From: Actinomycetota bacterium | Lineage (GTDB): Bacteria; Actinomycetota; CADDZG01; WHSQ01 | Length of the DNA: 39,961 bases | NCBI GenBank assembly: GCA_009379915.1 | Contig: WHSV01000027.1 | Location: forward strand, 1 to 39,961 | Reading direction: 5' to 3' | Shown: positions 5,216-8,222 of the stretch, piece by piece | Numbering within the stretch: the first letter of the stretch is position 1 | How the letters are laid out: every line of letters begins with the position of its first letter | Program-made: the position numbers and the translations under genes | The notes under the pieces: generated by a model | The model's input: only the letters and a program-made list of their open reading frames with translations | Told to the model about the DNA's origin: nothing | The model's database searches: none

Positions 5216-6694
5216 TTATTTCCTACGAGTAGGTTTCGTTTGCTTCTTCTTGGGACGAGCACCGCGCCTCTTGCTCAATAGAGCGCGCACCGTTGTGCCT
5301 TCCGCCTTGGAGATGACGTCCGAGAACGTCGCAATCGGCTCTCTGAGAGAGGGTTGAATCTTCGCGAGTCTCTCTGCGAGACGGGTGAAGGTCTGAATCG
5401 TCTCGGCGTCGACCTTGCTCTCCAGAATCTCAAAGTTGTTCCCTCGGCGCAGCCACGGCTCCACCAAGCGGACGGTGAGGCCGAAGGCTTCCTCGTCTTC
5501 CAGAAGAGCTCCGGACAGGTCGGCGGCGTTGCTGTCGACGAACTCGACGACGCGCTTGCCCAGGGGGGTTCGGGCCAGCACGCGACCGCGCAGTCGGCGC
5601 AATTGCTGCTCCTTACGTCGCATCTTGCGTCGGGGGCCGGCCATCGCTGCCGAGGTTCCGAATATCGACTCCAAGAGCGCACGAACTGCGCCGTTGCATA
5701 CCGTGGTCAGGTTCAAAGCGGTCAGCACGGCGTTGATGTCGTTGGCGATGGTGATGGGAACGCCGGCATTGTTGGTCCCACCCGCGTACAGGAGGCCAAC
5801 CACGGGAAGGGTGTTGTTGAGCTCCCCGACGGCTTGGTTGAAGATCAGAGACCCGGAGTCACCCGCCGCGCTGAACTGATTCCCGTCTGTCGACGTAATG
5901 ACGAAAGAGTTCGCAATCCGCCCCAGTCGAGTTCGGTTGCGGTAGTTGATGTTGAACGTACCGTTGATGGACGTGACCCGGCCGTTGGTCGTGAGTCTCG
6001 TCGTTCGCCCTCGCTTCTGTACGTTCATCCCAAGAGCGGGAGCTTGAACCTCGTAGATCGCCGGGCCGATATCGATGACGTTGTCGGTCCGGTCGACGGT
6101 GATCGTGCCGATGGCGGCGTCCACCGCGGTTACAGCCGGGAGCGTCGGCGACCCGGCCGGTACCGTCGTCAGAGAGATGTGTCGTTTGATCGTCCCGATT
6201 TGATCGGCGGGGAAAGTCCCGCCGTCAAGTCGACCGGGCTGGCAAATACCGGTTACCGCAGGCAGCGTGTCGAGATTGGAAATCACGTGGTTGTTGGTCA
6301 TCAGCACGATCGCGTCGTCGCTGTTGTCGCACGCCCAACCTCCTAGCGTTCCCGCCGAAACGCTTTGCTGCGGACCGATGCTGCACCCGCCGGGCACGGG
6401 TCGATAGCGAGTCGTGTCCTGGAAAGTGTCCAGGGGGCCGGATTCGATAACGTCCGTCCGAACCGTTCGGTCCCCCTCTGCCGTCACTGCGTTGGGGACC
6501 ACACTGCCGCTTGGAAGTCGGTCAACCGAGTACTTGCTCTCGACGAATACCTGAACGCACACCTCTGTTGAGAACTCTCCGCCCTTCTGCCGGTATCCCG
6601 TAGCGGTGCCGATCACGTTCGGGAGCGCCAGCAGATTCTCGGTGTTCAACTCCTGAGCGAACATTGCCTGAGAAACACGATCTTGTCTCGCCAC
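5216..6694 (-). CDS. Trypsin-like serine protease with N-terminal prodomain-like region and basic C-terminus
   Basis: 492 aa. A chymotrypsin-fold catalytic triad can be assigned: His136 in TNNHVIS, Asp192 in VDAAIG and Ser280 in AAGDSGSL. Residues about 20-90 form a separate small domain (LPNVIGTATGY ... VQVFVES). The same pattern occurs in the small protein encoded just upstream, so it may be a prodomain or an interaction module. After the protease domain (to about 335) comes a helical, Arg/Lys-rich extension ending in a Lys-rich tail (RPKKKQTKPTRRK). No signal peptide is seen, so it is probably intracellular. The start is a GTG at 6694 chosen for a GGGAGGAG site 7 nt upstream. Substrate and trigger are unknown; the triad call is firm, the domain roles are inference. 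Confidence 0.85.
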   Translation of the reverse strand: MARQDRVSQAMFAQELNTENLLALPNVIGTATGYRQKGGEFSTEVCVQVFVESKYSVDRLPSGSVVPNAVTAEGDRTVRTDVIESGPLDTFQDTTRYRPVPGGCSIGPQQSVSAGTLGGWACDNSDDAIVLMTNNHVISNLDTLPAVTGICQPGRLDGGTFPADQIGTIKRHISLTTVPAGSPTLPAVTAVDAAIGTITVDRTDNVIDIGPAIYEVQAPALGMNVQKRGRTTRLTTNGRVTSINGTFNINYRNRTRLGRIANSFVITSTDGNQFSAAGDSGSLIFNQAVGELNNTLPVVGLLYAGGTNNAGVPITIANDINAVLTALNLTTVCNGAVRALLESIFGTSAAMAGPRRKMRRKEQQLRRLRGRVLARTPLGKRVVEFVDSNAADLSGALLEDEEAFGLTVRLVEPWLRRGNNFEILESKVDAETIQTFTRLAERLAKIQPSLREPIATFSDVISKAEGTTVRALLSKRRGARPKKKQTKPTRRK

Positions 6695-6718
6695 CGTGGA
6701 ACTCCTCCCTCATGCCGG

Positions 6719-6967
6719 CTAACTGTCGAATGCTGTGAGCTCACCCGAAACAATGACCTCGGAGCGGGACTCTCCCAACGTCCCCGCTGCGGCCTGTTTC
6801 GTCGGGTCGACGTCCTCCTCCGATCTCACGAAGATGTGCACGACATAGTCCTGGTCACTCTTGGAACGGCCGACCGCGGTGCCGACCACCCCGGGAATCG
6901 ACGCGAGCTCCTCAGAGCTCGCTTCGAGGGCTTGCGAGGCGTCATCCGCCGTTGCGAATCCAGGCAT
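6719..6967 (-). CDS. Small protein homologous to the N-terminal domain of the adjacent protease
   Basis: 82 aa from an ATG at 6967, preferred over a GTG at 7021 because GGGGGGA lies just upstream of the ATG. Its core (IPGVVGTAVG ... VVHIFVRSEEDVD ... GTLGE) lines up with residues 24-90 of the protease encoded 25 nt downstream (LPNVIGTATG ... CVQVFVESKYSVD), including the spacing between strands. No catalytic residues, membrane segments or signal peptide are visible. The arrangement is like an inhibitor or folding helper made in trans from a duplicated prodomain (inference). It is probably co-transcribed with the protease. I do not know a family name for this domain. Confidence 0.7.
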   Translation of the reverse strand: MPGFATADDASQALEASSEELASIPGVVGTAVGRSKSDQDYVVHIFVRSEEDVDPTKQAAAGTLGESRSEVIVSGELTAFDS

Positions 6968-7139: not shown

Positions 7140-8222
7140 CTAGCCCGCTTTCAGCTGAGAGGGGACCACCACGACTTCGCGCTCCTCGCCGTTTCGGTAG
7201 ATCCGCACCGGGACCTTGCGGCCAATCGTGCCGGCGTCCATCAGGCGCTGTATGTCGTCCATGCCCTGAACCGGCTCGCCTTTTATCTCGAGGATGATGT
7301 CTTCGGGAGCGAGTCCGGCCCGGGCCGCCGGCCCTCCCGGTTCGACGTGCACGACCTCGATGCCGCGGTCGCGACCGACCCGGTTAGAGAGGCGTGGCGG
7401 CAGGGGACGCGGCCCCCCGGCGATCCCGAGGAAGGCCCGTCGCACCCGCCCGTCGCGCATCAGCGCGGCGATGATCTTGCGAGTGACGTCGTTGATCGGC
7501 ACCGCGAGGCCGAGCCCTTGCCCTGCATTGGCTCCGACCAGCGCGGTATTGATTCCGACCACCTCGGCTCGGCCGTCGGCCAGCGCTCCGCCGGAGTTGC
7601 CGGGATGCAGCGCCGCGTCGGTTTGGATCACGTTCTCGATGAAGCGGATGTGATCGCCGGCGCGTGCCGGGAACGATCGCCCCAGGGCGCTCACGATTCC
7701 CGCAGTCACCGACCCGGCAAATCCGAGAGGGTTGCCGAGTGCGACCACGAGCTGTCCGACCCTGAGCGTCCCGGCATCGCCGAGATCGGCGGGAACCAGA
7801 TCGGACGCGCGCGTGCGGAGCACCGCGAGATCGGACAGTGGGTCCGCACCGACGATCTCGAAATCGAACTCTCGACCGTCGGTAAACGAGACGATGCCCT
7901 CGTCTGTGCCGTGGACCACGTGAGCGGATGTGAGCATGTAACCGTCGGGAGTGATGACCACGCCGCTGCCGCCCCCCTCGACTGTGCGACCACCCATGAC
8001 TCTCCGCATCACCTGCAGGTTCACGACGGACGGCGCGAGCCGGTCCACTACGCGCGTGATCGTCGCCGAATACGCGTCGAGCGGATCGTCGTCGCCCGGA
8101 GGTTTGCTCGCGCGGGGCGGGGGAGCGGGGCCGTCGAGGATGTTGTCGACGAACAGCGGCTCGTCCCAGTCCTGGCTACGGCTCCGCTCGGGTCCACTGA
8201 TGCTTCTGGCCCGCAGATTCAT
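7140..8222 (-). CDS. HtrA/DegP-like trypsin-PDZ protease lacking a membrane anchor
   Basis: 360 aa. The trypsin-like domain spans about residues 60-260 with His101 (TSAHVV), Asp131 (SDLAVLR) and Ser210 (HPGNSGGAL), the standard HtrA triad. A PDZ domain follows at about 270-355 (RGIEVVHVEPGGPAARAGL, then GRKVPVRIYRNGEE). Most bacterial HtrA proteins carry a signal peptide or an N-terminal transmembrane helix. Here the first 50 residues are polar and proline-rich with neither, so a cytoplasmic location is likely. The start ATG has AAGGAG 7 nt upstream. HtrA enzymes degrade misfolded proteins. It lies 64 nt downstream of the acetyltransferase gene on the same strand and may share its transcript. 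Confidence 0.92.
   Translation of the reverse strand: MNLRARSISGPERSRSQDWDEPLFVDNILDGPAPPPRASKPPGDDDPLDAYSATITRVVDRLAPSVVNLQVMRRVMGGRTVEGGGSGVVITPDGYMLTSAHVVHGTDEGIVSFTDGREFDFEIVGADPLSDLAVLRTRASDLVPADLGDAGTLRVGQLVVALGNPLGFAGSVTAGIVSALGRSFPARAGDHIRFIENVIQTDAALHPGNSGGALADGRAEVVGINTALVGANAGQGLGLAVPINDVTRKIIAALMRDGRVRRAFLGIAGGPRPLPPRLSNRVGRDRGIEVVHVEPGGPAARAGLAPEDIILEIKGEPVQGMDDIQRLMDAGTIGRKVPVRIYRNGEEREVVVVPSQLKAG

Follow-up and report, generated by a model that had tools for sequence, protein, structure and literature searches.

In the window, the 39,961-nucleotide stretch of DNA analyzed here (contig WHSV01000027.1, from an Actinomycetota bacterium), a small stand-alone gene lies beside a NAL1-like protease gene, and we think it very probable that its product works together with the protease as a functional partner. 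The small protein, P0001 (82 aa; 6719..6967, minus strand), is NAL1_N-like, and the neighboring P0002 (492 aa; 5216..6694, minus strand) is predicted to be a NAL1-like S1-type serine protease from Pfam matches, comparison of an AlphaFold model with rice NAL1, and conserved residues. That the two form a protease-partner module, in which the free NAL1_N domain would restrain the protease in trans as a mimic of the built-in N-terminal domain, has in our judgment an even chance of being correct. We regard the pair as a functional unit because of its homology, common predicted topology, pairing in varied order and strand, co-inheritance, and absence of the partner from most viral loci; physical binding, the binding site, and the inhibitory sign are what we infer.

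The P0001 gene runs from an ATG at 6967 to a stop codon at 6719, with GGGGGG, a G-rich run resembling a Shine-Dalgarno sequence, upstream of the ATG. The P0002 gene begins with a GTG at 6694 and is preceded by GGGAGGAG, a Shine-Dalgarno-like sequence within the 24-nt spacer ahead of the protease start (6695..6718, minus strand). No signal peptide was apparent in either protein. An HtrA/DegP-like protease is encoded upstream, 172 nt away (7140..8222, minus strand); we judged it a chance neighbor outside the module and rejected a functional link, as a homologue lay beside only one of 80 related loci (L019).

Pfam searches with P0002 returned NAL1_N (2.2e-5), Nal1_C (7.5e-6), and Peptidase_S64 (2.1e-5). 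The NAL1_N score was 28.1 bits in the genome search (cut-off 27) and 24.6 bits in the whole-protein scan, and Nal1_C scored 25.7 bits against a curated cut-off of 26.1; among 67 protease relatives, NAL1_N matched 41 and the Peptidase_S64 model 11. A PDB sequence search gave rice NARROW LEAF 1 as a weak match. When the AlphaFold model of P0002 was compared by Foldseek, rice NAL1 (8hau) ranked first (E 2.3e-20), followed by Streptomyces griseus protease B (3.7e-11), with a modest TM-score to NAL1 of 0.53 at best. Within the putative catalytic triad (H136, D192, S280), H136 and D192 were invariant and S280 was at least 90% conserved across the 67 relatives. Taken from sequence and model, P0002 is a predicted bacterial NAL1-like serine protease and a new member of the NAL1 family (PF25608 NAL1_N, PF25819 Nal1_C; PDB 8hau, 7y77, 8pmg), with the same N-terminal and catalytic domains. 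Compared with NAL1, the predicted helical C-terminal extension (about residues 345-492; 5219..5661, minus strand; from the model and homologue alignment) is the window enzyme's own, and it aligned over its full length mainly with the closest relatives (L017-L019). Because P0002 is NAL1-like, the piece that exists as a free copy is the NAL1_N domain (about residues 1-93; 6416..6694, minus strand), a region recognized from Pfam, BLASTP, the model, and profile-profile comparison and duplicated in P0001. The first-pass annotation had described a duplicated protease domain, which is inaccurate, as the free copy matches the N-terminal domain and not the catalytic domain.

In a single BLASTP comparison with an E value of 5e-08, residues 5-80 of the 82 in P0001 aligned with residues 2-91 of the 492 in P0002, and 33% of the aligned positions were identical. 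Smith-Waterman alignment scored 87, whereas none of 5000 shuffles exceeded 61. When the two families were compared profile against profile, the probability was 99.6% (E 9e-24) over 77 columns. The shared motifs from which the pairing was originally noticed are real, and IPGVVGTAVG and LPNVIGTATG start at residue 24 in both proteins. They are not equally spaced, as had been stated: HIFVRSEEDVD starts at residue 44 and QVFVESKYSVD at 48, giving spacings of 20 and 24, and the difference of four residues falls in a hairpin. AlphaFold modeled P0001 with a mean pLDDT of 88 and an alpha-beta-beta-alpha-beta order that is common to the N-terminal region of P0002, so that comparison of the predicted folds, a check suggested at the outset, turned up an identical order of elements and no sign of different folds.

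P0001 itself had no direct match to PF25608, and direct matches were found for 13 of 66 members of the stand-alone family. Structural matches to P0001 in the PDB were weak (MamM C-terminal domain, E 0.007; EscJ, E 0.012), and we treated them as a shared simple topology and not as relatives; a PDB search with a sequence profile found nothing. The C-terminal ends of the small proteins lie no more than three residues from a conserved alanine column in 54/64 cases, with the stop exactly one residue past that column in 31/64. In sequence terms, so precise an end at the domain boundary fits a bare binding domain, and the C-terminus of the small proteins may itself matter.

To place the pair in a wider context, a genome collection with one genome per species (84,980 species) was scanned, which returned 80 protease loci, and up to 1.5 kb from the protease was searched with a stand-alone profile that had nine stand-alone domains as its seed and went through one round of refinement. 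A P0001-like gene lies directly upstream of the protease gene in each of the three closest protease relatives (L017 Luteitalea, 55% identity; L018 Thermoleophilia, 52%; L019 Acidimicrobiaceae, 47%). A stand-alone NAL1_N-like gene was present within 1.5 kb of the protease at 63 of 79 loci (L062, included here, is weak), placed downstream in 41, upstream in 16, convergently in five, and divergently in one. The same profile gave zero matches when the reading frames were reversed or shuffled. The pairs span 14 named phyla, archaeal Methanophagales included; the phylum names were taken from metagenome records, among which there may be some misbinning. The first loci had been selected by the protease, and for this reason a second sample was run, in which the small family and the protease were searched separately in 397 genomes of the window's phylum; the small gene was adjacent at 18/23 protease loci (protease >100 bits). 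It was also present in all three annotated plasmids checked, one from Rubrobacter and two from Rhizobium, where the pair genes are named hypothetical protein or left unannotated. No other recurrent neighbor was seen beside the protease across phyla, and no second NAL1_N domain naturally fused to the protease was seen among the loci. The conserved co-occurrence on which the first-pass annotation had staked its proposal is therefore borne out in both samples and, together with the identical predicted topology, supports its view of the small protein as a dedicated protease partner. The remaining 16/79 protease loci, including 7/7 from Bacillota, had no adjacent partner, which means that cells can also do without it.

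A tree was built from 66 stand-alone domains together with 67 built-in ones. It is poorly resolved, but the two kinds separate in it with eight label changes, against 44.7 under shuffled labels, and a few lineages (Chloroflexota, ANME-1) look like separate duplications. The own protease's domain was the closest built-in domain for the stand-alone copy in only 9/54 pairs; for P0001, the domain of its own protease does come nearest, by a small margin (32.5% vs 30.3%). Small-protein distances tracked protease distances (Spearman 0.36; best of 1000 permutations, 0.25). The tree separation, the few own-closest pairs, and the correlated distances suggest that most of the small genes belong to an ancient family of their own, which moves together with the protease. 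We rejected a local duplication in the window because the small proteins are mostly their own lineage and because, in other phyla, the closest proteases have relatives of P0001 as neighbors. What held of the original description is a homologous neighbor, whereas the notion of a copy of the adjacent protease's domain mostly does not apply.

NAL1-like proteases are also encoded on viral contigs, where most keep the built-in N-terminal domain. A stand-alone gene was nearby at no more than 4/80 viral loci: two of these genes resemble a built-in domain that has been split off, and the other two are weak; searches of the viral contigs with P0001 alone found nothing. With 2/80 viral loci counted as paired, the comparison with the cellular loci (63/79) gave a Fisher p of 2e-26. 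Viral and cellular lineages are interleaved in the tree with eight transitions, of which only two provide independent contrasts on well-supported branches. This distribution argues that the partner is something that cells, more than viruses, need. Since viral homologues mostly have the N-terminal domain and lack the partner, the partner is probably not needed generally for folding or activity, and restraint therefore fits better than an obligatory chaperone.

As we picture it, a NAL1-type protease carries its own NAL1_N domain and the neighboring gene would supply a second, free one, which would act on the protease in trans, most likely by restraining it. The free domain would take the place, or the subunit interface, used by the protease's own N-terminal domain. 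While the partner is bound, the protease would stay inactive or unassembled in the cytoplasm, and release would follow when the partner is removed, degraded, or outcompeted. The intracellular setting that had been proposed fits: by a crude heuristic, neither gene showed a signal-like segment in 52/64 pairs, and none was apparent in the window proteins. By the same heuristic, five pairs (L020, L021, L025, L070, and L079) combine a small protein bearing a signal for export or of lipoprotein type with a protease that has none, with the reverse case, a signal on the protease but not on the small protein, in three. In those five, the two proteins may sit in different compartments, and a simple cytoplasmic inhibitor does not explain them.

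Restraint is not the only action that a free NAL1_N domain could have. It may, though we doubt it, be an assembly factor or cofactor, that is, a subunit, cap, or chaperone aiding folding, oligomerization, or activity. Solved NAL1 structures are titled 'open' and 'close' and include multi-chain entries, subunit interfaces may matter, and tight gene linkage suits a subunit as well as an inhibitor; however, the viral and Bacillota homologues with an intact N-terminal domain but no partner indicate that such help is not generally required, and gene order and strand are variable. We consider it unlikely that the small protein is a substrate that the protease cleaves, or an adaptor that docks via the shared domain and delivers substrates, in a signaling cascade. 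Most of the small proteins consist of little more than the domain, so that there is hardly any tail for the protease to cut, and an adaptor region is not evident; this speaks against the reading even though some of them are exported or lipoprotein-like when the protease is not, the Rhizobium plasmid pairs adjoin radical SAM and HEXXH peptide-modification genes, and REL2, a specific regulator, is degraded by a NAL1 protease in plants (PMC12915138).

For a few stand-alone relatives, no such protease was detected in the same genome (G117, G273, and G054), as might be expected if the small gene were an independent by-product of N-terminal domain duplication whose function has nothing to do with the protease. 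An unrelated gene would not be expected to pair with the protease in 14 phyla while order and strand vary, nor to diverge in step with it, and we think this explanation very improbable. A narrower version of restraint casts the small gene as an antidote that checks a self-harmful intracellular protease in bacteria and archaea, in stress or defense, with phages having repeatedly taken the protease alone; this is speculative and we give it little credence. PADLOC models gave no match to P0001 or P0002, and on that basis a known anti-phage defense system was ruled out.

If the small protein does restrain its protease, it would resemble inhibitors that act on proteases of other families. Spi resembles the propeptide of SpeB. 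In the SpeB-Spi and staphopain-staphostatin systems, the gene for a small specific inhibitor is contiguous and co-transcribed with that of the protease, and the inhibitor is thought to protect the cytoplasm (PMC3462683). As in the window pair, a small gene lies beside the protease (63/79 loci in our case), but SpeB and the staphopains are cysteine proteases of other families with no sequence relation, and inhibition is established there and only proposed by us here. Yeast Pbi2 and POIA1 are I9 propeptide-like inhibitors. Among the I29 propeptide-like inhibitors (CTLA-2alpha, crammer, and BCPI), free propeptide homologues inhibit cathepsins (PMC4089206). These I9 and I29 inhibitors are free proteins that share homology with the N-terminal domain found in their target protease family, as P0001 does with that of P0002. 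They copy the cleaved propeptide of subtilisins or cathepsins, whereas the solved NAL1 constructs retain the NAL1_N region: by their titles, the PDB constructs start at residues 31-46 and so include the N-terminal region, and NAL1_N is therefore probably not removed in them. By analogy, the stand-alone partner resembles the propeptide-like inhibitors, and placing it among them would depend on inhibition. The serine protease domain of the window enzyme is related to those of yeast Ssy5 (Peptidase_S64) and of alpha-lytic protease and S. griseus protease B, in which N-terminal prodomains act as both chaperone and inhibitor; no relation was detectable between NAL1_N and these prodomains.

The protease NAL1 matters to agriculture in both rice and maize and is known for its effect on rice yield. 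The literature searched mentioned no stand-alone NAL1_N partner of plant NAL1 and gave no description of a bacterial NAL1 protease-partner pair, and a stand-alone NAL1_N partner was not found as a named system in Pfam, NCBIfam, PADLOC, or the open literature searched. If true, our proposal would name a specific control element for the whole NAL1 protease family across at least 14 prokaryotic phyla, point to a function of the NAL1_N domain, and give a role to two genes annotated as hypothetical protein.

Several further loci were of interest in their own right. At L101:1087-1716 and L116:994-1653, a stand-alone NAL1_N-like domain forms the C-terminal end of lipoprotein-like proteins 210-220 aa long, and a NAL1-like protease was looked for in these genomes and none was detected. 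In a 675-aa reading frame (L117:1069-3093), a NAL1_N-like domain precedes a region that is unrelated and not of the trypsin kind; the NAL1_N-like domain is thus not confined to NAL1-like proteases. On two Rhizobium plasmids (L207, NZ_CP050304.1; L209, NZ_CP071682.1), the protease adjoins radical SAM and HEXXH peptide-modification proteins in surroundings that resemble peptide-modifying clusters, and the small partner gene is divergent in both and unannotated in L209. In spore-forming Bacillota (L047, L065, L084, and L091), the protease, here without a partner, adjoins yabG (peptidase U57), and Veg is among the scanned neighbors; a sporulation link for the Bacillota NAL1-like protease is possible. 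On viral contigs from IMG/VR (L127-L206), the protease is sometimes near genes for DnaB helicase, clamp loader, and thymidylate synthase, and PHROG 20754, labeled 'protease', corresponds to the NAL1-like protease family. By sequence match, this family also reaches archaeal viruses, as the spiravirus Alphaspiravirus yamagawaense (HE681887.1:10526-11101) encodes a predicted protease whose match to the window protease covers residues 15-201 of the latter.
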